Of a stretch of 64,000 nucleotides of DNA, positions 4,432 through 55,614 are shown piece after piece. Position numbers and translations under genes: made by a program. Positions within the stretch are counted from its first letter, which is position 1. Each line of letters begins with the position of its first letter. The stretch covers positions 1 through 64,000 of the forward strand of contig NZ_VRLT01000024.1 of assembly GCF_008017835.1 (NCBI RefSeq), given 5' to 3'. This DNA is from Mesonia sp. HuA40 (lineage in GTDB: Bacteria; Bacteroidota; Bacteroidia; Flavobacteriales; Flavobacteriaceae). Below the pieces are notes generated by a model. It saw nothing but the letters and a program-made list of their open reading frames with translations, made no database searches and was not told where the DNA came from.

Positions 4432-6312
4432 CTATTCTTTAACAATCTTAAATTCAGATCTACGGTTTTCTTGGTATTGCTCTTCTGTACAAGGTGAACA
4501 TTCAACTTTTGGTTGACTCTCCCCGTAACCTTCTCCATCAATACGACTTGCATCTATACCTTGATCGATAACATATTGTACCGTACTCTTAGCTCTAGCT
4601 TGAGACAACTGTAAGTTGTAAGCTTCAGAACCGCGTTTATCGGTATGCGCACGAACAAAAATCTTTAAGCTGTCGTGTTTTTTCATAATTGCCACCAATC
4701 TGTCTAGCTCATAAGCACCTTCTTTGGTTATAGCCGACTTATCAAACTCGAAGTAGATAGGATTTAACACGATTTCTTCTTCTTGAATCATCGGTTTAAT
4801 CGGCGTAAGCTCGATAGTGATTTTCTTAGGTCCTTCTACACTCGTTACAGCAGCCGAATTACTTTCGTATTCTCCTGCATTAACTTGAACCGTATAATCT
4901 TCTTGTGAAGAAAGAACAAATTTAGCATTTCCTTTTGCGTTGGTACCGGCAGATTTAAGCTTCTCTTCTGCTTGGTTATACACCGCCACTTCTGCATTGG
5001 TAATGCTTTCGCCTGTTTCCATATTGATTACGTGTACCATAAGCTCTAGATCTCTGATGATATCTTTGAACATATAGATATTATCGTTAGCGATATTTTC
5101 TAAAACCTCGCCACGATTTGAACTTACAAAACCGTATTCTTTACTTGGGTAATAGGCAAATGCGAAATCATCTCCTTCGCTATTGATCGGTTTACCGATA
5201 TTGATTACTTGACCGTTTTCGTATTTAAAAACATCTAATCCTCCTACTCCTAAATGTCCATCACTTGAGAAGTATAAGATTCCGTTTTCATCTACAAACG
5301 GGAAACTTTCTCTACCCGAAGTATTGATTGCAGTACCCAAATTTTGAGGCGAACCAAAAGTACCGTCCTCGTTGATGCTCACTTTATATAAGTCTGATTG
5401 ACCTTCTCCTCCTGGCATATCGCTAGAGAAGTAAAGCGTACGACCATCAGGGCTAAGTGCAGTGTGACCTGTAGAATAGTTGGAGTTGTTAAAAGGCAAA
5501 GGCTGTACATCTGCCCATTCGCCTTCTAATAAAGTAGCTTTAAAAACCTTTAATTGGTTGATTCCTGTGCTATCCTTTTCGTAATCACCGTCGTAATAAT
5601 CATTACGCGTAAAATACATAGTTTGCCCGTCTGGAGTAATACTCACTGTACCTTCGTGGTACTTAGAGTTTACATCCCCTGGTATCAAACTAGCCTCTGT
5701 ATATTCACCAGCCATTTTGGTAGCCACATAAACATCTAAGGTTGGTTGCTTGTTCCACCCGTAATCTTTTCTTGATTTATTACGTGAAGAAACAAAGTAC
5801 AATTGATTATTGAACTCATAAGCTCCAAAATCTGAAAGTTCTGAGTTCAAGTTCTCTAAAGCCATCATTTCGTAAGCAGGTTGCTTGCTTAACAAATCTT
5901 GCATATAGTTAGGATTTGCCATAAAGCTACGTGCTCTACCGTCTCTTGGAAACTTTTGTGCAAAATCTTGCATAGCCTTTTGCGCTAAGTCATACTTTTT
6001 GTTGGCTTTTAGCATTTGAGCATAGTTGTAATACTCATCTGCCGAAGCATCTTCTGCAGTCTCTAGGTACAATTTATAATAACGCTCTGCTTCTTTGGTG
6101 TTGTAAAGATTGTAGTAGCTTTTGGCTAATCTCCCATACACATATGCATCTGCGTCTCCGTCTTCTACGATATCTAAATATTTGTCGGCTGCTTTTACAT
6201 ATTGCAAGCGCTCAAAATATTTGTCGGCCTTTTTGGCATCGTAATTTTGTGCAAAGCCCATGGTCATAGAACCCATAAAGCCAAGTATAAATAAATAATA
6301 TATTTTTCTCAT
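4432..6312 (-). CDS. TPR / PD40 propeller / OmpA-domain lipoprotein-like outer-membrane partner
   Basis: Periplasm-facing envelope protein, 626 residues from the ATG at 6312 (a GTG at 6324 in frame is possible but less likely, as the signal peptide MRKIYYLFILGFMGSM begins at the ATG). Order seen: signal peptide, TPR-like helices (about 25-135), WD40-like PD40 repeats with SPDGRTLYFSSD and related motifs (about 170-400), a carboxypeptidase-regulatory-like beta domain (about 430-510), and an OmpA/MotB domain (about 515-626) with the peptidoglycan-binding HTDKRGSEAYN motif. Genes of this architecture regularly follow PorP/SprF genes in Bacteroidota and are thought to tie the T9SS-exported adhesin machinery to the cell wall. 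It is the last gene of the unit starting at 10115 and is followed by a strong terminator. Confidence 0.9.
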   Translation of the reverse strand: MRKIYYLFILGFMGSMTMGFAQNYDAKKADKYFERLQYVKAADKYLDIVEDGDADAYVYGRLAKSYYNLYNTKEAERYYKLYLETAEDASADEYYNYAQMLKANKKYDLAQKAMQDFAQKFPRDGRARSFMANPNYMQDLLSKQPAYEMMALENLNSELSDFGAYEFNNQLYFVSSRNKSRKDYGWNKQPTLDVYVATKMAGEYTEASLIPGDVNSKYHEGTVSITPDGQTMYFTRNDYYDGDYEKDSTGINQLKVFKATLLEGEWADVQPLPFNNSNYSTGHTALSPDGRTLYFSSDMPGGEGQSDLYKVSINEDGTFGSPQNLGTAINTSGRESFPFVDENGILYFSSDGHLGVGGLDVFKYENGQVINIGKPINSEGDDFAFAYYPSKEYGFVSSNRGEVLENIANDNIYMFKDIIRDLELMVHVINMETGESITNAEVAVYNQAEEKLKSAGTNAKGNAKFVLSSQEDYTVQVNAGEYESNSAAVTSVEGPKKITIELTPIKPMIQEEEIVLNPIYFEFDKSAITKEGAYELDRLVAIMKKHDSLKIFVRAHTDKRGSEAYNLQLSQARAKSTVQYVIDQGIDASRIDGEGYGESQPKVECSPCTEEQYQENRRSEFKIVKE

Positions 6313-30562: not shown

Positions 30563-31924
30563 ATGACCTTCTTTCAAAAAATAAAACAAACGATTAATCT
30601 TTTAAAAGAGGTCGATTTAGATCAATTAACTAAAATACATGATAAAATCGATTTAAAGCAAACCCTAGCAACTTTAGGAAAATTAGATGATCGGCAAATA
30701 AAAAATATGCTCAAGTTGTTGCACCACCAGGGCAAACGCGGACAGCATCAATTACCACCTATCGATGGAGATTTTTATAATTTAGATCTCAAACTAACCG
30801 ATACTCAACGCGATTTACAACTGCGGGTACGACAATTTATGGAAAAGGAAGTTCGCCCTATTGTTAACGATTATTGGAACAAAGCAAAATTCCCTTTTGA
30901 TATCATCCCTAAATTAGGAGAATTGAATATTACGGGTATTGCCTACGAAGGTTACGGTTGCGCGGCTATGCCTTTTTTAATGGAGGGCATTATCGCCCAA
31001 GAAATTGCTCGGGTAGATGTTTCTATTTCTACTTTTTTTGGTGTACATAGCGGATTGGCTATGGGCTCAATATACCTTTGCGGAAGCGAGGCTCAAAAAC
31101 AAGAATGGTTGCCCAAAATGCAAAAATTAAAAACGATTGGAGCTTTTGGTTTAACCGAACCAAATGTAGGTTCGGCCGTTTCGCAAGGAATGGAAACCAC
31201 CTGCCGTTTTGATGGAGAGAACTGGATATTAAACGGTCAAAAAAAATGGATTGGTAATGCCACCTTTGCAGATGTTATTGTAATATGGGCAAAAGACATC
31301 GACTCAAAGCAGGTGAAAGGATTTTTGGTACGTAAAGAAAACCCTGGCTTTAAAGCCGAAAAGATGGAAGATAAGATGGCTCTGCGCATCGTGCAAAATG
31401 CCTTGATCACCTTATCCGATTGCAAAGTTCCCGAGACCGATCGTTTGCAAAAAGCTAACTCTTTTGCCGATACTGCCAAAGTCTTAAAAATGACCCGAGC
31501 GGGCGTAGCTTGGCAAGCCGTTGGCTGTGCGCGAGGGGCTTATGAAAGTGCCTTAAAGTATACTAAAAAACGTGAACAATTTAGCAAACCTATAGCCAGT
31601 TTTCAACTTGTTCAAAATCATTTGGTAGAAATGCTATCCAATTTAACCGCTATGCAAACCATGGTTTTTCGCTTGTCTGAATTACAAGACGAAGGAATTT
31701 TAACCGATGAGCACGCCTCCTTAGCCAAGGTGTTTTGCAGTTTGCGCACCCGTGATGTGGTAAGCCGCGCACGAGAAGTACTAGGCGGCAATGGAATATT
31801 GCTCGAGCATGATGTGGCACGTTTTGTAGCCGATGCCGAAGCAATTTATAGCTATGAAGGAACCAAAGAAATCAATACATTAATCGTTGGTAGAGCTATA
31901 ACAGGTTATAGTGCGTTTGTTTAA
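30563..31924 (+). CDS. Acyl-CoA dehydrogenase (glutaryl-CoA dehydrogenase-like) with N-terminal helical extension
   Basis: 453 residues. The dehydrogenase core begins near residue 75 (LTDTQRDLQLRVRQFMEKEV). FAD-binding landmarks GAFGLTEPNVGS and the tryptophan-containing NGQKKWIGNA follow, with the catalytic glutamate in YSYEGTKEIN near the C-terminus, as in the glutaryl-CoA/isovaleryl branch. It passes electrons to ETF; etfBA lies 14 kb downstream. The first about 70 residues are an additional lysine- and leucine-rich helical segment not normally present. Followed after 20 bases by a 2-hydroxyacid dehydrogenase, so probably co-transcribed. Exact substrate cannot be decided from sequence. Confidence 0.88.
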   Translation: MTFFQKIKQTINLLKEVDLDQLTKIHDKIDLKQTLATLGKLDDRQIKNMLKLLHHQGKRGQHQLPPIDGDFYNLDLKLTDTQRDLQLRVRQFMEKEVRPIVNDYWNKAKFPFDIIPKLGELNITGIAYEGYGCAAMPFLMEGIIAQEIARVDVSISTFFGVHSGLAMGSIYLCGSEAQKQEWLPKMQKLKTIGAFGLTEPNVGSAVSQGMETTCRFDGENWILNGQKKWIGNATFADVIVIWAKDIDSKQVKGFLVRKENPGFKAEKMEDKMALRIVQNALITLSDCKVPETDRLQKANSFADTAKVLKMTRAGVAWQAVGCARGAYESALKYTKKREQFSKPIASFQLVQNHLVEMLSNLTAMQTMVFRLSELQDEGILTDEHASLAKVFCSLRTRDVVSRAREVLGGNGILLEHDVARFVADAEAIYSYEGTKEINTLIVGRAITGYSAFV

Positions 31925-47636: not shown

Positions 47637-49328
47637 ATGAAACGCCATGTTGTAATAAGCCTGCTTTTTTTCTGGGTAGGTGTACTAGGAATAAACGCCC
47701 AATCTATTGAGAAGCAATGGGAATTGCTTGCCCCCCAACAAAACGACAGCTTAGCTATTGACCGTTTAAATTTAAAAGATGGCTTATTTGAGTATCAGCA
47801 GAAAAAATTAAAAACTAGTCAGCAAGGGGATTTTCTATATCAAAACGATCTTCTTCTGCTCTTTATCCCCGAAAACAATTCAGAAAAAATCCAGAAATAT
47901 AGAGTAAAGCAACTATCTGATAGTTTACTCACCCTAAAAACAAACAATAGAGAATACACCTATATTACTCGCCAAAAAGCCAAAGAAACTGTTGTAGCAC
48001 CGCCTCAAAAAACAGCTATTCCCAGTCAAGGATTCTCTATTGAAAGTCTATGGAAAGGTCTATTAGGGATGTTCTCTTTACTAGTTATCGCCTTTCTTTT
48101 TAGCAGTAACCGTAAAGCTATAAACTGGAAAACCGTTGGCGCTGGGCTTAGTGCTCAATTGTTATTAGCCTATGGGGTTTTACAAGTAAAATGGGTTCAA
48201 GTTGCTTTTGAATTTGTTGGTGAAATATTTGTGAAAATTCTTGATTTTACAGCGGCAGGTAGTGAGTTTTTGTTGGGCGGCCTTATGGATGTTAATAGTT
48301 ATGGTTTTATTTTCTTGTTTCAAGTCTTACCAACGGTAATCTTCTTCTCGGCACTTACCTCAATTCTCTTTTATCTAGGTGTGATTCAAGTTATCGTAAA
48401 AGGATTAGCCTGGATGCTTACCAAACTATTAGGCGTTTCTGGTGCCGAAGGTTTAAGCGTTGCCGGTAATATTTTTTTAGGTCAAACCGAAGCACCTTTA
48501 ATGATTAAGGCTTATTTAGAGCGAATGACCAAATCTGAAATTCTTTTGGTGATGGTTGGTGGTATGGCTACGGTAGCTGGAGGAGTTTTAGCAGCCTACA
48601 TTGGTTTCTTAGGTGGCGATGATCCTGTTGTTCGGTTGGAGTTTGCGAAACATTTATTGGCAGCATCTGTCATGGCTGCACCTGGAGCTATTATTATATC
48701 TAAAATATTATATCCTCAGCAGGAAAAAATCAATACAAGTGTAGAAGTTTCAGAAGAGAAAATAGGAACTAATATCTTAGATGCTATCGCTAACGGAACT
48801 ACCGAAGGTCTTAAACTAGCTGCTAATGTTGGAGCTATGCTTCTTGTTTTTGTAGCACTTATTGCTATGATTAATTATGGTTTTGCTAAAATTGGAGATT
48901 GGACTTACCTTAACGGATTTTTAGCCGAAAACACCCCCTACCAAAGTTTTTCTATTGAAGCTATTTTAGGAACCGTTTTCGCTCCTCTTATGTGGTTAGT
49001 AGGTGTGGCCACCGAAGATATGATGCTTATGGGACAACTCTTAGGAATTAAACTTGCCGCAAGCGAATTTGTAGGTTACATTCAATTAGCTGAATTAAAA
49101 GATCCTGCAACAGCATTAAGCCTTACTTATGAGAAATCAATAATCATGGCCACCTATATGTTATGTGGATTTGCCAATTTTGCTTCTATTGGGATTCAAT
49201 TAGGAGGTATTGGCTCTTTAGCACCAGGACAACGTAAAACACTTTCTAAATTTGGTTTAAAAGCTGTGATTGGAGGAACGTTAGCTTCATTACTTTCAGC
49301 TACGATTGCAGGGATGATTATTGGGTAG
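47637..49328 (+). CDS. CNT family (NupC-type) nucleoside transporter with periplasmic N-terminal extension
   Basis: 563 residues. Signal peptide MKRHVVISLLFFWVGVLGINAQ, an about 115-residue extracytoplasmic segment, then the CNT membrane core from about 140. Core motifs: FLGQTEAPLMIKAYL and GGMATVAGGVLAAY (first hairpin/TM region), VGVATEDMMLMGQLLG, and CGFANFASIGIQLGGIG (second substrate loop). Imports nucleosides with Na+ or H+. The last 32 codons are part of a 96-bp sequence repeated at 54062-54157, so this C-terminus may have been supplied by the inserted cassette; the protein remains full length. Confidence 0.92.
   Translation: MKRHVVISLLFFWVGVLGINAQSIEKQWELLAPQQNDSLAIDRLNLKDGLFEYQQKKLKTSQQGDFLYQNDLLLLFIPENNSEKIQKYRVKQLSDSLLTLKTNNREYTYITRQKAKETVVAPPQKTAIPSQGFSIESLWKGLLGMFSLLVIAFLFSSNRKAINWKTVGAGLSAQLLLAYGVLQVKWVQVAFEFVGEIFVKILDFTAAGSEFLLGGLMDVNSYGFIFLFQVLPTVIFFSALTSILFYLGVIQVIVKGLAWMLTKLLGVSGAEGLSVAGNIFLGQTEAPLMIKAYLERMTKSEILLVMVGGMATVAGGVLAAYIGFLGGDDPVVRLEFAKHLLAASVMAAPGAIIISKILYPQQEKINTSVEVSEEKIGTNILDAIANGTTEGLKLAANVGAMLLVFVALIAMINYGFAKIGDWTYLNGFLAENTPYQSFSIEAILGTVFAPLMWLVGVATEDMMLMGQLLGIKLAASEFVGYIQLAELKDPATALSLTYEKSIIMATYMLCGFANFASIGIQLGGIGSLAPGQRKTLSKFGLKAVIGGTLASLLSATIAGMIIG
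49232..49327 (+). repeat. Left 96-bp direct repeat (transporter 3' end), candidate attachment site
   Basis: Covers the last 32 codons of the nucleoside transporter up to the second base of the stop. It matches 54062-54157 at 95 of 96 positions; the one difference (A49310 versus T54140) is silent in an alanine codon. The stops differ just outside (TAG here, TAA in the right copy). Confidence 0.95.
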
Positions 49329-49382
49329 GGAATTGAAGTTCAACCCGAAATTGAAAGCATTACATTTTATGGCTCATATTAA

Positions 49383-49769
49383 CTATTTTGAGCTTAACAC
49401 TTCAATACTTTTTTTCATTTCAGCAATGATAAACTCTTTATCTGCAATTCGCTGTTCATAAAGTAAGATAATTTTTTTACTCTGCTCTTTGTTTTCTTGA
49501 TAAAAATTTGCTGTTTGCTGTAAATACCCAGTTGTATTATCTTTATTAGTTTGGTTAAATTGATTATTAGGTTGAAGATTAAGAATTTCCCCTACCTCAA
49601 CATCAAGAATTTCTGCAATTTTATAAAGACGTTCTACTGTTAGTTTGGTTTTATTGCTTTCAAGTTTTGTATAAGCTACTTGACTTAAATCTAACATGTG
49701 TGCCATATATTCATGAGAGTAACCCAATTTTTTTCTAATTGTCTTAATGTTTTCTAGTATTTCAATCAT
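49383..49769 (-). CDS. XRE-family HTH regulator of the peptide cassette
   Basis: 128 residues. Helix-turn-helix of the Cro/CI type at about 7-61 (IRKKLGYSHEYMAHMLDLSQVAYTKLE, split here by its recognition helix SQVAYTKLE), with typical IAEILDVEVGEILNL. The C-terminal half is a glutamine- and lysine-rich helix likely to form a coiled coil for dimerisation. Transcribed away from the peptide gene with a 216-bp shared intergenic region holding nested palindromes, so control of the cassette, perhaps including itself, is likely. It is the only gene of the cassette on the minus strand. Confidence 0.9.
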   Translation of the reverse strand: MIEILENIKTIRKKLGYSHEYMAHMLDLSQVAYTKLESNKTKLTVERLYKIAEILDVEVGEILNLQPNNQFNQTNKDNTTGYLQQTANFYQENKEQSKKIILLYEQRIADKEFIIAEMKKSIEVLSSK

Positions 49770-49901
49770 AATCTGGTATAATTTATTATTGCAATATAAC
49801 AGTAAGCTTTCTTTATTATTAATTTTATTAATAACTATTAATTATAAAATATTTCGTAAAAATAATGTTTTCATCATTAAGGTTATTGAAAAACATTCAA
49901 A

Positions 49902-49952
49902 ATATTTAAATATTTGTCTTATCAAAATAATCGCGATTCTATTTTTTGATAA
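49902..49952. promoter_or_regulatory. Palindromes over the putative promoter of the leader-peptide gene
   Basis: Three symmetric elements: ATATTTAAATAT (49902-49913); TTATCAAAA / TTTTGATAA (49919-49927, 49944-49952); and, inside that, the 10-bp palindrome AATCGCGATT (49929-49938). A TTTG at 49913-49916 and TATTTTTTG at 49940-49948 (one extra T versus TAnnTTTG) could be the -33 and -7 boxes. The arrangement fits binding by the divergent XRE protein. Confidence 0.5.
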
Positions 49953-49985
49953 AACAAATAATGTTTAATTTTAAAAACTTAAAAA

Positions 49986-50183
49986 ATGAATTTAGAAAAT
50001 TATGGCGTTAAAGAACTGAAAGCCAAAGAAATCAATGAAACAAATGGTGGTTTATGGCAATTTGTGGCTGGAGCAATTATAGGCGGGCTTATATGGGATG
50101 GTGTAAAATGGGTTTACACACACGATGTGGAAGGTTATGGGGAATGGCTTTTGGAAACTGGCAGCCCTGGTGGAGCAAAGTAA
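49986..50183 (+). CDS. Double-glycine-leader peptide, bacteriocin-like precursor
   Basis: 65 residues. The leader MNLENYGVKELKAKEINETN ends in GG (residues 21-22), with the L, V/L and E/I positions expected for C39-processed leaders. Predicted mature peptide is 43 residues: a hydrophobic start LWQFVAGAIIGGLIWDG with a GxxxG helix-packing motif (GAIIG), then KWVYTHDVEGYGEWLLE and a flexible GSPGGAK tail. No cysteine, four tryptophans, net charge about -3. A matching C39 ABC exporter and HlyD adaptor are encoded downstream. Class II bacteriocin (lactobin/cerein-like) is the leading guess; the acidic charge and lack of a second peptide leave a signalling role open. Confidence 0.85.
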   Translation: MNLENYGVKELKAKEINETNGGLWQFVAGAIIGGLIWDGVKWVYTHDVEGYGEWLLETGSPGGAK

Positions 50184-50197
50184 TTATTTATAAACCA

Positions 50198-50225
50198 AAG
50201 CCATGATTTTTAAAAATTGTGGCTT
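50198..50225 (+). promoter_or_regulatory. Hairpin after the leader-peptide gene
   Basis: 12-pair stem with two G-U pairs (AAGCCATGATTT with AAATTGTGGCTT, loop TTAA), 14 bases past the peptide stop and lacking a strong T run. Suited to partial termination or 3' protection, giving more peptide than downstream product. Confidence 0.55.
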
Positions 50226-50245
50226 CGATTTAATTAAAAATAAAT

Positions 50246-50620
50246 TTGGTTAAGAAAAAAAAATACCTCATAATTTGTGTTTTTACAATTACTCTTGGGG
50301 TAGTGCTTACTGTTTTTTACCGCCCCTATATATACAACAACAACATCTACGATTTTGGCTTTGCAGATGTTATAGGCAGTTTAGTTTCAGTTATTGGGTT
50401 TTGTACTTTCATTTGGACTAATAAAGACTATTCTAGTAAAATAAAAAACTCCCATATTTTAATAGCCACATTTATTTATGCCATACTTTGGGAAGCTCTA
50501 GGCTATTTTGGTCTATATGGAACCTTTGACCAAAAGGATATATTAGCTTCTATTTTTAGTGGTTTTTTAACATTTGTAATTAAAACATACATAGAAAAGA
50601 AGTATTCTAATAAGAATTAA
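50246..50620 (+). CDS. Small membrane protein, candidate immunity protein
   Basis: 124 residues starting at TTG (50246). No ATG or GTG is available in this frame: an in-frame stop lies at 50231 and the protein has no internal methionine. A lysine-rich start (VKKKK) leads into four predicted membrane helices (about 7-25, 41-58, 70-90, 99-114). The ILWEALGYFGLYGTFDQKDILAS patch, taken as WE...FD..DI.A, recalls VanZ-like membrane proteins, but no family can be assigned. Between the precursor peptide and the exporter genes, where immunity genes are usually found; that role is inference from position. Confidence 0.7.
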   Translation: MVKKKKYLIICVFTITLGVVLTVFYRPYIYNNNIYDFGFADVIGSLVSVIGFCTFIWTNKDYSSKIKNSHILIATFIYAILWEALGYFGLYGTFDQKDILASIFSGFLTFVIKTYIEKKYSNKN

Positions 50621-50701
50621 AGTAAAATGTTTTAATCAAAGGAAACACTCTTTAAATAAATCTAAAAAACACTATTAGTTATTAAAAATACATAAAAGTT
50701 A

Positions 50702-50732
50702 TTGAATAAAATATATCTACCTCGTTTATTTG
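50702..50732 (+). promoter_or_regulatory. Possible promoter for the export genes
   Basis: TTG at 50702-50704, 20-base spacer, TTTATTTG at 50725-50732 (one mismatch to TAnnTTTG), 15 bases before the hlyD-like ATG. Confidence 0.35.
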
Positions 50733-50747
50733 TATTAAAAAATTTTT

Positions 50748-51884
50748 ATGAACTTTAGTTCAGACCCAATAAATAATCTTGAAAACCTTACTGCAAAAAA
50801 CAAAACTACAACGGTTTCAATATACATAATTGTGGTTCTAGCTATTGTGGTTGCTTTGGGCTTACTTCCTATTGTAGAAGTTAACGTGAGTAGCCAGGGC
50901 AGAGGTATAGTAAGAAGTCTTACAGACCCAGTCCCCATTATGGCAATAACACAAGGTAAGGTAGCTGGCGTTTTTATAAAAAATAATCAAGATGTAAAAA
51001 AGGGCGATACTCTTCTAACTATAGCTACAGAACATGTTTCTGCAGAATTAAAACTACAGGACACATTACAAACTACTATAAAAGAACAAATAGCAGACCT
51101 CCAAAAACTCACACAAGGAAATTTTACTAATCTTAAAACTGTTTTTTACAAAGGGGAGCTTCAAAAGTACAGAACAGGTTTATTTGAGTTACAAAGTAAA
51201 GTGGCTCAAGCACAAGTAAATCATGATCGCAACAAACTGCTCTTTGACAGAGATGTTATTGCTAAAGCTGAGTATGAGAATTATCTTTATAATTTACAGT
51301 TTGCTAAGGAGTCAAAACAAAATTACATGGCTACATTTAATAGTCAATGGCAAAATACAAAGCAACAACTATTAGAACGCATTAACAACATACAAGCTAC
51401 AAGTGAGCAACTAGAGATTGAGAAAAACAACTATGTAATTACTTCGCCTATAAGCGGAACGATAGAAAATTTTATTGGTTTATTACCAGGTTCATTTATA
51501 AACCCTTCACAATCGCTTGGTGTAATTTCTCCAAATCAAAACCTTATTGTTGAATGTATAGTAGCCCCAAAAGATATTGGTTTAATTAACAGAAGTCAAA
51601 AAGTACAGTTTCAGTTTGATGCCTTTAATTACAACCAATGGGGTTTGATTGAAGGTAATGTTATTGAAATTGATCAAAATGCAACAGTAAAAAACGAAGA
51701 TGTTTATTTTAAAGTACGTTGTTCATTGAACACTTTTGAACTACAATTAAACTCTGGTTATAGAACTGAAATCAGAAAAGGACTCACCGTAACAGGTCGA
51801 TTTGTAATTACACGTAGAAGTCTATTTGATTTACTTTTTGATAAAGTAGATGATTGGTTAAACCCTACTCAAATAAGTAACTAA
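50748..51884 (+). CDS. HlyD-family periplasmic adaptor of the peptide exporter
   Basis: 378 residues. One N-terminal membrane helix (about 24-44), a lipoyl-like half (VEVNVSSQGRGIVRS; AGVFIKNNQDVKKGDTLLTI), a long helical hairpin (about 95-230) and the second lipoyl half with the beta-barrel (YVITSPISGTIENFIGLLPG; LIVECIVAPKDIGLINR). Bridges the inner-membrane ABC transporter and an outer-membrane factor. Adjacent to the C39 exporter with no gap (stop then ATG). Confidence 0.93.
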   Translation: MNFSSDPINNLENLTAKNKTTTVSIYIIVVLAIVVALGLLPIVEVNVSSQGRGIVRSLTDPVPIMAITQGKVAGVFIKNNQDVKKGDTLLTIATEHVSAELKLQDTLQTTIKEQIADLQKLTQGNFTNLKTVFYKGELQKYRTGLFELQSKVAQAQVNHDRNKLLFDRDVIAKAEYENYLYNLQFAKESKQNYMATFNSQWQNTKQQLLERINNIQATSEQLEIEKNNYVITSPISGTIENFIGLLPGSFINPSQSLGVISPNQNLIVECIVAPKDIGLINRSQKVQFQFDAFNYNQWGLIEGNVIEIDQNATVKNEDVYFKVRCSLNTFELQLNSGYRTEIRKGLTVTGRFVITRRSLFDLLFDKVDDWLNPTQISN

Positions 51885-54035
51885 ATGGCTTCAATAAAAG
51901 TAAAACAACAAGACTTTAAAGACTGTGGTGCTGCTTGCTTAGCTTCTATTGGCAACCATTTTCAGGTAAAATTACCCATAGCCAGAATACGTCAATTTGC
52001 AAATACAGATAAAAGAGGTACCAATGTGTTGGGCATGATTGAAGCTGCCGAGAAAATGGGCTTTACTGCAAAGGGTGTAAAAGGTGAGGTTGATGCTCTC
52101 AATAAAATTCCATTGCCTGCTGTTGCCCATTTAATTTTAGAAAATCAATTACAACATTTTGTCGTAATATATAAATCCAGCAAGGGAAAAATAACTATAA
52201 TGGATCCCGGTAACGGTAAAATGAAATCTTACACTATAGACGAGTTTAAAAAAAAATGGAGTGGTGTTTTGATTCTTTTTGCCAAAGCTGATGACTTTAA
52301 AAGTTATGATAACAAAATTTCTCCTACAAAACGTTTTTGGAATTTAGTACAACCTCATAAATCAGTTTTAACACAAGCACTTTTTGGAGCGATTATTTTT
52401 ACCGTTCTAGGGCTTGCCATGTCTATTTATGTACAAAAAATTACAGATTATGTACTGGTTGAAGGAAACACAAACCTGCTTAATTTATTAAGCACCACAA
52501 TGATTATTATTTTGCTTTTAAGGCTATTTATTGGTTCATACAAAAGCATATTAATATTAAAAACAGGCCAACTCATTGATGCAAAACTTATATTGGGCTA
52601 TTATAAGCATTTGTTAAAATTACCGCAACGCTTTTTTGACACCATGCAAATTGGAGAAATCACTTCAAGAATTAGTGATGCTGTAAAAATAAGAGCCTTT
52701 ATTAATGATGTAGTTATAGAATTAGTTGTAAACCTTTTTATTGTTATTTTTTCATTTGTACTGATGTTTACTTTTTACTGGAAACTAGCTTTGGTTATTC
52801 TACTTGTTATTCCGTTTTATATTGTTATATACATTTTAATGAACTATTTCAATAAAAAAGTAGAACGGCGTATTATGGAAAATGGAGCTTCACTTGAAAC
52901 TCAACTTGTTGAAAGCATCACTCATGTGAGAACAGTAAAAGAATTTGGAATTGAAAATTATTCAAACTTAAAAACCGAAAACAAGTTTGTAAAATTGCTT
53001 TTTACAACTTATAAATCTGGAATGAATAGCATTTTTTCTGCAAACTCCACTCAATTCCTTGCTTCTACTTTCACGGTCATTCTTTTATGGGTAGGTTCAG
53101 GGTATGTTATTAACCAAGAACTAACACCTGGTGAATTATTTTCATTTTATGCATTAATTGGCTATTTTACTTCGCCTATCGCTTCTTTAATTAGCATGAA
53201 TAAAACTATTCAAAATGCACTCATCGCAGCAGACAGGCTTTTCGAAATTATGGATCTTGAAAGAGAAGAGTCTACAAATAAAATAATAATAGATAAAAAT
53301 GAATTAGGTGATATCCGGTTTGAAAATATAAACTTTAGATACGGCTCAAGAATTCAGGTGTTTGAAAATTTCAATGCTATCATTAAAGTTAACAAAACCA
53401 CTGCTATTGTTGGAGAAAGCGGCTGTGGAAAAACAACTTTAATTTCTTTAATTCAGAATCTATATCCTATAAAAAGTGGTAAGATATTTATTGGAAATTA
53501 TGATTTAAATTTTGTAGATAACCACTCGCTTAGAAAACATATTGGTATAATACCTCAAGAACTTAACTTGTTTTCTGGAAGCATCATTGAAAATATTGCG
53601 CTCGGAGAACCTTTTCCTGATATAAAACGAATCATTGAGCTCTCAGCCCAACTCGACATCACTTCTTTTGTAGAAAAAATGCCTAATGGTTATGACACTT
53701 TGCTTGGCGAAAATGGAGCCTTACTCTCTGGCGGACAAAAACAACGTATTGCAATAGCAAGAGCTCTATATAAAAACCCAGATATACTTATTATGGATGA
53801 AGCTACATCTGCCCTAGATACCGTATCAGAAGAGCTAGTGCAAAAGGTCATTTCAGATTTTAAAAATCAAGAAAAAACAATCATTGTTATAGCACACAGA
53901 TTAAGTACAATTCAAAATGCTGACACAATTTTAGTTATGAAAGAAGGAAAAATTGTTGAGCAAGGAAATCATATAGACTTAATCAATAAAAAAGGTAATT
54001 ATTTTAATCTTTGGAAAAAACAGACACTACATTAA
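51885..54035 (+). CDS. C39 peptidase-containing ABC exporter for double-glycine peptides
   Basis: 716 residues. N-terminal C39 peptidase (about 1-135) with catalytic Cys14 in KQQDFKDCGAACL, His in QLQHFVVIY and Asp in ITIMDPGNG; membrane domain with six helices (about 160-440); nucleotide-binding domain with Walker A GESGCGKTT, signature LSGGQKQRIAIARAL, Walker B ILIMDEATSALD and the H-loop VIAHRLST. It should cut the leader of the 65-residue peptide after GG and export the mature part. All catalytic residues are intact, so the system looks functional. Last gene of the cassette before the right direct repeat. Confidence 0.96.
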   Translation: MASIKVKQQDFKDCGAACLASIGNHFQVKLPIARIRQFANTDKRGTNVLGMIEAAEKMGFTAKGVKGEVDALNKIPLPAVAHLILENQLQHFVVIYKSSKGKITIMDPGNGKMKSYTIDEFKKKWSGVLILFAKADDFKSYDNKISPTKRFWNLVQPHKSVLTQALFGAIIFTVLGLAMSIYVQKITDYVLVEGNTNLLNLLSTTMIIILLLRLFIGSYKSILILKTGQLIDAKLILGYYKHLLKLPQRFFDTMQIGEITSRISDAVKIRAFINDVVIELVVNLFIVIFSFVLMFTFYWKLALVILLVIPFYIVIYILMNYFNKKVERRIMENGASLETQLVESITHVRTVKEFGIENYSNLKTENKFVKLLFTTYKSGMNSIFSANSTQFLASTFTVILLWVGSGYVINQELTPGELFSFYALIGYFTSPIASLISMNKTIQNALIAADRLFEIMDLEREESTNKIIIDKNELGDIRFENINFRYGSRIQVFENFNAIIKVNKTTAIVGESGCGKTTLISLIQNLYPIKSGKIFIGNYDLNFVDNHSLRKHIGIIPQELNLFSGSIIENIALGEPFPDIKRIIELSAQLDITSFVEKMPNGYDTLLGENGALLSGGQKQRIAIARALYKNPDILIMDEATSALDTVSEELVQKVISDFKNQEKTIIVIAHRLSTIQNADTILVMKEGKIVEQGNHIDLINKKGNYFNLWKKQTLH

Positions 54036-54061
54036 AAAAGCAGAACACTCATAGAATAGCT

Positions 54062-54157
54062 ACGTAAAACACTTTCTAAATTTGGTTTAAAAGCTGTGAT
54101 TGGAGGAACGTTAGCTTCATTACTTTCAGCTACGATTGCTGGGATGATTATTGGGTA
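54062..54157 (+). repeat. Right 96-bp direct repeat: orphan copy of the transporter 3' end
   Basis: Second copy of 49232-49327 at an exact offset of 4830 bases, one mismatch in 96. Here it has no upstream coding sequence and no start, ending in TAA: a C-terminal gene fragment of 32 codons. It marks the right boundary of the peptide cassette and probably the original 3' end of the chromosomal transporter gene. Confidence 0.95.
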
Positions 54158-54373
54158 AACTATGTTCCTTATCGCTTTCGCGGAATTATATAGAAGTTAA
54201 AAATTAATCTTTTATCATTCATTTTTAGCTTCTTTTTATATTTTTACCAAAAGACTTGCGTTAGGGATTGAGCGATTTGTTGAAGCTCTTTTGTTTTGTC
54301 ATCTCGAGCAGAGTCGAGAAACAAAACAAAAAGCGACTCGCGAAAGCCCGCCCGAACGCCTAAAATACTATTC
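54158..54373 (+). other. Non-coding stretch between the cassette and thyA
   Basis: No gene seen. Contains a CGCTTTCGCGGAA motif (54171-54183), similar to one inside tex at 28324, and the hairpin repeat at 54289. No strong TAnnTTTG box was found for thyA. Confidence 0.5.
54289..54331. repeat. Hairpin resembling a dispersed Flavobacteriia intergenic repeat
   Basis: Arms TTTTGTTTTGT (54289-54299) and ACAAAACAAAA (54321-54331) enclose TCTCGA / TCGAGA (54302-54307, 54314-54319). The core TCATCTCGAGCAGAGTCGAG looks like the widely scattered TCGAG-type intergenic repeats remembered from marine Flavobacteriia genomes. It may act as a bidirectional terminator before thyA. Confidence 0.6.
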
Positions 54374-55198
54374 ATGAAACAATATCACGATTTACTTCAA
54401 CACGTTTTAGAACACGGTAATGAAAAAGGAGACCGCACAGGAACAGGTACTAAAAGTGTTTTTGGCTACCAAATGCGTTTTGATTTGAGTGAAGGCTTTC
54501 CCATGGTGACCACCAAGAAGTTGCATCTAAAATCGATTGTTCATGAGCTTTTATGGTTTTTAAAAGGAGACACCAACATAAAATACTTACAAGAGAACGG
54601 AGTACGAATTTGGAATGAATGGGCAGATGAAAACGGAGATTTAGGTCCGATTTACGGTCATCAATGGCGCAATTGGAACAGCGAAGAGATTGATCAAATT
54701 AAAGATATTGTAGAGACTCTGAAGAAAAATCCTAACAGCAGAAGAATGTTAGTTTCTGCATGGAATCCTAGCGTCATGCCAGATACATCAGTCTCATTTG
54801 ATGAAAATGTGGCTAACGGAAAAGCTGCTTTACCACCTTGTCATGCCTTTTTTCAGTTTTATGTAGCCAACGGTAAATTATCTTGCCAGCTTTATCAACG
54901 AAGCGCCGATATTTTTCTTGGCGTTCCTTTTAATATTGCTTCTTATGCATTGTTTACCATGATGATGGCGCAAGTGTGCGGCTATGAAGCAGGAGATTTC
55001 ATTCATACCTTTGGTGATGCTCACATTTATAATAACCACCAAGAGCAAGTAGAATTACAGCTTTCTCGAGAGCCCAGAGAACTTCCTAAAATGGTTATTA
55101 ATCCAGAAGTGAAAGATATCTTTGGCTTTGTATTTGAAGATTTTACCTTAGAAAACTACCAACCACATCCGCATATTAAAGCTAAAGTCGCGGTTTAA
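54374..55198 (+). CDS. thyA: Thymidylate synthase
   Basis: 274 residues from [15 protein letters not shown] (ATG 54374); in-frame codons further upstream encode no conserved sequence and overlap the hairpin repeat. Converts dUMP to dTMP with methylene-tetrahydrofolate. Seen: [13 protein letters not shown], the active-site Cys in [32 protein letters not shown], and [10 protein letters not shown]. Dihydrofolate reductase, which regenerates its cofactor, is 4.4 kb downstream. Confidence 0.97.
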
Positions 55199-55209
55199 AA
55201 CCAATGATT

Positions 55210-55614
55210 ATGAAAAAATATATCTTTATTTTAACCTTAATCCTTACCTCATCGTTTGGATTTTCTCAAACTGCATCAGGTAACAAAGTATCTTCTAAAG
55301 AAGTAGCTCCCGTTTGGCCAGGGTGCGAGGAAAGTAGTCAAAAATCAAATTGCTTTAATCAAATGCTAGCCAAGCATATTCAGCAAAATTTTAAATTTCC
55401 GAAAGGTTATAGTGCCGAAGATAAAGGCACACGAGTAATTGTAAGTTTTGTAGTAGATGAGACAGGAAAAACCAAAATTCTTGAAACTACGGGCGGAAGA
55501 GAGCTTTTACAAAAAGAAGCCGAAAGAAATATTCTTGCTATTCCAAAAATGAAACCGGGTCATCTTAACGGAAAAGCTCGAGCTATAAAATATAAAGTGC
55601 CTTTTACTTTTTAA
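55210..55614 (+). CDS. TonB C-terminal-domain-like secreted protein
   Basis: 134 residues from the second in-frame ATG (55210, MKKYIFILTLILTSSFGFSQ, a clean signal peptide); the ATG at 55204 is also possible. The mature region has the Bacteroidota pattern VxPxWPGCE, then a TonB-C fold with RVIVSFVVDETGKTKIL and PKMKPGHLNGKARAIKYKVP. Such short proteins lack the N-terminal anchor and proline-rich arm of true TonB, so energy transduction is doubtful. Role unknown. Confidence 0.82.
   Translation: MKKYIFILTLILTSSFGFSQTASGNKVSSKEVAPVWPGCEESSQKSNCFNQMLAKHIQQNFKFPKGYSAEDKGTRVIVSFVVDETGKTKILETTGGRELLQKEAERNILAIPKMKPGHLNGKARAIKYKVPFTF

Follow-up and report, generated by a model that had tools for sequence, protein, structure and literature searches.

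Integrative elements can use the 3′ ends of genes as attachment sites. Insertion with long target duplication, as the original account of restriction-modification genes in Helicobacter pylori by Nobusato et al. (Gene, 2000) reportedly has it, is another way in which a small gene unit comes to be flanked by direct repeats. The locus analysed here lies in a window of 64,000 nucleotides (positions 1 to 64,000 of contig NZ_VRLT01000024.1) from Mesonia sp. HuA40, a member of the Flavobacteriaceae, and holds a five-gene peptide-secretion cassette placed between two 96-nt copies of the 3′ end of a CNT nucleoside transporter gene. As with integrative elements of that kind, the gene is rebuilt at one end of the cassette and an orphan 3′ end is left at the other; unlike them, the cassette comes without an integrase and without a constant site or polarity. 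Based on the mosaic ancestry of the locus, the cassette most likely came in by homologous recombination, together with DNA from the clade of a second species, represented by genome G002.

The H. pylori insertions, as described in published accounts (PMC3031569, PMC1643837), share with this locus a small gene unit, long and variable direct repeats, and an empty site that is single-copy. They differ in that the cargo here is of the peptide-secretion/XRE type in Bacteroidota, that all five XRE cases described below duplicate a gene 3′ end, and that at another locus, paaZ, the copy on the cargo side is foreign. In Vibrio cholerae, effector-immunity modules of the type VI secretion system are proposed to have been displaced through a mechanism resembling homology-facilitated illegitimate recombination, with orphan immunity genes remaining behind (PMC5361080). 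That model resembles the one favoured here in its one-sided homology anchor, in the illegitimate joining of the other end, in the old gene part being pushed downstream, and in the later spread of filled loci by homologous recombination; the displaced part there belongs to the competition system itself, whereas here it is an unrelated housekeeping-gene end. The nearest studied peptide system found is that of the bacteroidetocins, described as a four-gene region with a thiol oxidoreductase and leaders of 15-16 aa (PMC6671954). Like the cassette, it combines a GG-leader peptide with a peptidase-domain ABC exporter on mobile DNA of Bacteroidota; unlike it, the cassette has a 22-residue leader, a HlyD protein and an XRE regulator. 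Judged by titles and the openings of abstracts, no paper among the matches listed from the open-licence literature reports long target duplication or homology-facilitated illegitimate recombination in Bacteroidota or in bacteriocin cassettes.

The imported tract was defined by means of identity profiles and pairwise matrices between G000, the genome of the window, and its relatives, and its components are given below.

48490-55600 (ends approximate): imported tract of ~7.1 kb, ~97% identical to G002 outside the cassette
47637-49328, + strand: CNT nucleoside transporter, full length, 563 aa, stop TAG, PF01773 and PF07662; its last ~840 bp are of donor-species type
49232-49327, + strand: left repeat copy, the last 32 codons of CNT as far as the TA of the stop codon
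49383-49769, - strand: XRE-family regulator, 128 aa, PF01381, of a subfamily (alignment A1) found in similar cassettes of other genera
49986-50183, + strand: GG-leader peptide, 65 aa, class IIb-bacteriocin-like, with a 22-residue leader ending ...NETNGG as read from the sequence
50246-50620, + strand: small membrane protein, 124 aa, TTG start, candidate immunity protein
50748-51884, + strand: HlyD-type periplasmic adaptor, 378 aa, PF13437, TIGR01843 below cut-off
51885-54035, + strand: C39 peptidase/ABC peptide exporter, 716 aa, PF03412, PF00664 and PF00005, TIGR01193 above cut-off
54062-54157, + strand: right repeat copy, an orphan CNT 3′ tail with stop TAA, then native spacer
54374-55198, + strand: thyA, thymidylate synthase, donor-type (97.3% to G002, 74-75% to the sisters), start codon assigned by reading

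Left of ~48,490 and right of ~55,600, the sequence was 92-98% identical to G015 and G010, the two nearest relatives and sister species of G000, and 71-78% to G002. Inside the tract, which comprises the last ~840 bp of CNT, the cassette, thyA and the next gene, this ancestry was reversed: identity between G000 and G002 was 96.9% in the CNT 3′ part, 97.3% in thyA and 97.4% in the small gene at 55204-55590, and the sisters were at 74-80% in the CNT 3′ part and thyA (80.2% and 74.3%, respectively, for G015). For the small gene, the comparison with G015 and G010 gave no usable pairwise match, and about 56-70% identity in profile windows. Over the contig's first 68 kb, from ~15 kb onward, the tract was the longest stretch so unlike G010, and so unlike G015 where it was compared. 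Ancestry thus changes sharply on both sides, with the cassette inside, and since the cassette lies within a donor-species tract spanning the CNT end, thyA and the next gene, homologous recombination is indicated as its route of entry, for which an integrase is unnecessary. G008, a relative of G002, likewise resembled G000 more closely within the tract (80-84%) than beyond it (70-77%), which places the donor in the clade of G002; the donor would be a relative of G002 and not G002 itself, because G002 carries another gene at the position of the cassette.

The initial annotation had described this stretch as one unit bounded by 96-bp repeats, and that description held. The two copies (49232-49327 and 54062-54157, spaced by 4830) are identical at 95 of 96 positions, and searching all 2.64 Mb of the genome (62 contigs) at the DNA level revealed these two copies and no others. 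As had been read at the outset, the sole mismatch (A at 49310, T at 54140) is a silent GCA/GCT change, the stop codons differ (TAG on the left, TAA on the right), the transporter is full length and the right copy is an orphan tail. The sequence that follows the right copy (ATCGCTTTCGCGGAATT) is part of the native spacer and is common to G008 and, except for its first base, to G002. The repeat lies deep within its contig of 156 kb; on the assembled sequence, assembly error is an unlikely account of it, because it would leave the donor-species ancestry of both flanks unexplained. No tRNA was found across the 64-kb window, and a search of Rfam near the insertion site gave a single match, far below its gathering score.

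The gene content between the copies, in the order first proposed (XRE regulator, GG-leader peptide, small membrane protein, HlyD adaptor and C39 exporter), was likewise confirmed. The exporter scored 525.7 bits against TIGR01193 (NCBIfam; cut-off 523.85), and the peptide 21.4 bits against TIGR03949 (class IIb bacteriocins), slightly under the cut-off of 21.5, with the leader visible in the sequence. Pfam and NCBIfam gave no family for the small membrane protein; by eye it is similar (YRP...DFG.AD) to the protein accompanying a GG peptide at positions 5371-5748 of locus L161, and both are candidate immunity proteins. As the initial annotation had stated, none of the five genes encodes an integrase, by open reading frames and Pfam, and no restriction-modification cargo was found by Pfam or NCBIfam. 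Taken from its sequence, the cassette is predicted to be a bacteriocin-type peptide secretion unit, with a possible antimicrobial activity and a putative immunity membrane protein. Its G+C content is 30.4% versus 37.2% in the window, and it is a discrete and probably foreign unit.

The comparison within the genus covered 15 other genomes, 14 of which have CNT. No close relative of the cassette exporter was present in these 15 genomes, where the best-scoring match, nearly full length, had 33% identity (G012). The empty site that the initial annotation had proposed to look for in relatives was found in three of them, G015, G010 and G011, in which CNT is followed by thyA after a gap of 207, 208 and 198 nt, respectively, and the genus does not uniformly carry the same genes at this place. 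In the other 11 CNT loci, further genes lie inside the gap, named by eye as an outer-membrane-like protein, YceI/porin-like genes, a hydrolase-like gene and an unknown. Since different genes occur there in different species, the CNT-thyA gap looks like a variable spot across the genus (L019-L032). A spacer element upstream of thyA (window 54258-54355: GCGTTAGGGATT...GAACGCC) was also observed in L200, from another genus, and twice around the YceI/porin-like genes of G008; the 336 kb of G000 that were examined hold one copy.

Cassettes with a related XRE gene were found at the ends of other genes. Flanking repeats were sought at 54 XRE loci, several of them truncated by contig ends, by comparing the 600 bp next to the XRE stop with 12 kb on the opposite side (14 loci) or the stretch with itself (40 loci); further XRE places outside the 54 were G604, G523 and G695 and, more weakly, L093, L109 and L113. 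Gene-end repeats were present at five loci (the window, L162, L062, L167 and L179), and 49 were without a counted repeat. The target genes were CNT, rnc, rny, the 3-hydroxyanthranilate dioxygenase gene and mfd, with no constant attachment sequence or polarity. L162, from an uncultured Algibacter, carries a homologous cassette (identity 70% for XRE, 49% for HlyD and 75% for the exporter) between perfect 49-bp copies of the rnc 3′ end, where the full rnc adjoins the exporter side and the orphan end lies 7 nt from the XRE stop. In L062 (G238), XRE, a lipoprotein-like gene and another secreted-protein gene lie between repeats of 163 bp (99.4% identity) that comprise the rny 3′ end plus downstream sequence. 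L167 is a second XRE cassette of G000 itself (contig C22, 106.6-109.9 kb; L167 9571-12913), with a GG peptide, a CPBP-like protein and an unnamed 386-aa protein, between 174-bp repeats (92.5%) of the dioxygenase gene end; it has no exporter of its own, and the exporter of the window might serve its GG peptide. L179 (G750) combines XRE with a GLPGLI gene (TIGR01200) and an 887-aa gene, TonB-receptor-like by eye, and adjoins an 82% copy of the mfd end. Over the related insertions, repeat lengths were 49, 93, 96, 163 and 174 bp, target gene and orientation vary, the full gene stands on the XRE side in the window and L062 and on the opposite side in L162, L167 and L179, and the end of the repeat falls between -15 and +120 relative to the stop codon. 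No integrase was seen in the L162, L062, L167 and L179 cassettes, whose open reading frames were read by eye.

A second cargo type of the XRE subfamily was observed in L188, where XRE stands beside GLPGLI-type and TonB-receptor-like genes as in L179, the GLPGLI identity being profile-confirmed in L179 only; L188 also has a perfect 47-bp repeat in non-coding DNA beside XRE, which was not counted. Neither were L205, where the duplicated 3′ end is that of XRE itself, L200, whose repeat is the spacer element also found elsewhere, L193 (ends of two open reading frames of about 230-250 aa), L174 (57 bp, 82%, no gene end) or L060 (20-bp matches). Contig ends or an insertion-sequence-like stretch cut the XRE loci L058, L065, L192, L197 and L205; in L192, L197, L065 and L205 the contigs stop close to the XRE gene, as though a repeat had broken the assembly. 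Of 106 exporter relatives on genome contigs, the best 80 were scanned, the first scan omitting loci with <200 bp on one side, and most were without flanking repeats; L162 gave rnc and L132 a 33-bp hutU tail, and repeats in L088, L115, L147, L072 and others were judged to be repeated or arrayed stretches and dropped. Control stretches, 20 in number and each 20 kb long, were taken from two complete genomes within the family, and no gene-end/orphan pair was seen in them. Control repeat rows in L208, L210, L214, L216, L217 and L219 were judged to be arrays, within-gene repeats or intergenic; two touched gene ends, one in L208 (by 13 bp) and one in L210 (the end of a 94-aa frame in a repetitive gene).

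Gene ends are also duplicated around other cargo, one case being the paaZ gene. The insertion there, with a foreign paaZ 3′ end, is present in G010 (contig C7, 30619-34644; L255) and, outside the window, in G000 (contig C61, about 147.4-150 kb; insert about 0.6 kb shorter) and is absent from G015. In G010, intact paaZ is mostly 92-100% identical to G015, dropping to about 55-77% near position 31,920; this foreign 3′ end is followed by a lipoprotein-like gene, a gene for a 302-aa membrane protein and an orphan paaZ tail 96% identical to G015. The cargo-side copy is foreign and the orphan native. The switch from native to foreign lies ~40 bp upstream of the orphan start, and ~40 bp of native sequence were lost. 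At paaZ, one of the two joints is homologous and one is not; the imported tract of the window spans both sides.

Similarly, the end of hutU (urocanase, TIGR01228) is duplicated in three genomes (L132, L138 and L161; Cecembia, Aquiflexum and Indibacter), with an exporter, little, and a RelE-type toxin gene, respectively, between the copies, making the hutU 3′ end a possible recurrent entry point, and that of a LacI-type regulator is duplicated likewise in L137. A scan for protein tails gave 41 rows from 174 sequences, overlapping loci included, 16 of the rows being one array (L210), with a filter that missed paaZ. Those kept by eye were rnc, rny, mfd, CNT, the dioxygenase, L137, L138 and two in L161; L059/L087 (an exporter tail of 15 aa), L067, L091, L115, L159, L165, L193, L202 and L203 were set aside. 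Collinear stretches of G000, G010 and G015 showed five distinct differences of at least 300 bp. Three correspond to paaZ and the two XRE cassettes, and no duplication was seen at the remaining two, of 905 and about 1071 bp.

Taken jointly, these observations are best read as the import of a bacteriocin-type cassette in a ~7.1-kb tract by homologous recombination, with the repeat arising from one-sided recombination, a reading to which we assign a probability of roughly 0.6. DNA from a species close to G002 would have been exchanged through the shared CNT and thyA flanks, the repeat being either already present in the imported stretch or made on arrival. In the one-sided step, donor DNA consisting of a CNT 3′ end followed by the cassette would pair with the resident CNT on one side, and its other side would be attached within the tail of the resident CNT without long homology. 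A full-length CNT would thereby be rebuilt ahead of the cassette and the last 96 bp of the resident left behind as an orphan tail, so that the two copies would be two alleles of one gene end and an integrase would not be required. The origin of the repeat is less certain than the import; one-sided recombination, which we infer, is its most likely source. The two-allele view agrees with the ending of identity inside the stop codon (TAG versus TAA), since identity between two alleles followed by unrelated DNA is expected to stop there. Of the 11 gene-end duplications collected, 6 lost identity no more than 3 bp from the final base of the stop codon, or 4 of 9 by gene, a tally in which hutU, from three genomes, accounts for three of the six and for which the null model (uniform from -15 to +150) was ad hoc. 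This tendency and the foreign paaZ copy support one-sided recombination.

Several observations pull the other way. The copies differ by one base, which demands donor and resident CNT alleles that were very close, and G002 differs from the left copy at 6/96 and from the right at 5/96. One-sided recombination is, according to the V. cholerae study, far rarer than normal recombination (PMC5361080), yet repeats occur at 5 of the 54 XRE loci. The rny (163 bp) and dioxygenase (174 bp) duplications extend 61 and 120 bp beyond the stop, and in both pairs neither copy looks more foreign, which a duplicated resident target fits equally well. Extension from paaZ to the window is by analogy, as paaZ has no XRE and a different cargo. 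Moreover, the XRE stop lies within 55 nt of the repeat in all five XRE cases (55, 7, 47 and 19 nt, with a small overlap in L179), a closeness that random donor fragments do not require, and no donor genome with the gene end and the cassette but no orphan tail was found.

In a rival account, the cassette entered by direct insertion and its repeat represents the resident target, copied during insertion by a staggered break, template switching or similar, with homologous recombination later carrying the filled locus into G000; we hold this possible but clearly the less probable account. Long variable direct repeats do surround the insert, both orientations relative to the target occur, the copies of the window, L162 and L062 are 99-100% alike, those of L062 over 61 bp of non-coding DNA as well, and the dioxygenase site is a single contiguous copy in G010 and G015, from which the two copies of G000 are equally distant. 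The phenomenon is also a published one, under the words "long and variable target duplications" (PMC3031569, PMC1643837). Target duplication, however, gives no reason for identity ending at or inside the stop codon, and the foreign cargo-side copy at paaZ speaks against it; as regards a resident origin, the copies are equally distant at the dioxygenase, one is foreign at paaZ and both are donor-type in the window. To our knowledge, no enzyme is known for long target duplication, which counts further against it. It is also rather doubtful, and slightly more so, that the XRE subfamily marks a genuine family of compact mobile cassettes in Bacteroidota, free of integrases, which would enter housekeeping-gene 3′ ends in either orientation by a dedicated process duplicating 49-174 bp, with the XRE stop at one border and cargo of peptide/exporter, peptide/CPBP or TonB-receptor-like/GLPGLI type.

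Site-specific integration at the CNT 3′ end, which the initial annotation had favoured, would call for a tyrosine recombinase that either acted in trans or was lost afterwards, and it appears improbable. Its geometry fits, with the gene rebuilt on one side and an orphan tail and native flank on the other, cassette-free sites exist, and the genome encodes five Phage_integrase-family proteins. None of these five, however, lies in or beside either G000 cassette, only one being on the contig of the window (105 kb), in a recombinase search that covered the Phage_integrase family, serine recombinases and transposases not having been searched for. A single integrase with a fixed site is disfavoured because the related cassettes differ in target gene, repeat length (49-174 bp) and orientation, and the repeat ends vary from -15 to +120 with respect to the stop codon; the plasmid (E <= 1e-12) and phage (E <= 1e-10) collections and viral contigs yielded no XRE relative at the thresholds used, and C39 exporters occur on plasmids, at <60% identity. 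Given the donor-species tract and these variable targets, lengths and orientations, that proposal is not supported, and a scar left where gene ends recombined accounts better for the supposed integration site. A chance or ordinary duplication unrelated to the cassette is the least credible of the alternatives: gene-tail duplications do surround other cargo (paaZ, hutU, the LacI-type regulator), and the difference between 5/54 XRE loci and 0/20 controls is not significant alone, but four further pairs (L162, L062, L167 and L179) span XRE, for which random placement gives ~0.005, a rough guide as the pairs were picked because they span XRE.

Import of the cassette by homologous recombination, with a repeat from one-sided recombination, would make this locus an illustration of how a small competition cassette can gain entry to a genome with no integrase involved and afterwards pass between species by ordinary homologous recombination. 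The orphan gene ends left by such an entry are easily misread as integration sites. The part worth following is the recurrence with one XRE subfamily, whose presence at the duplicated ends of different genes raises a testable alternative between a special process and selection acting on rare one-sided recombination.

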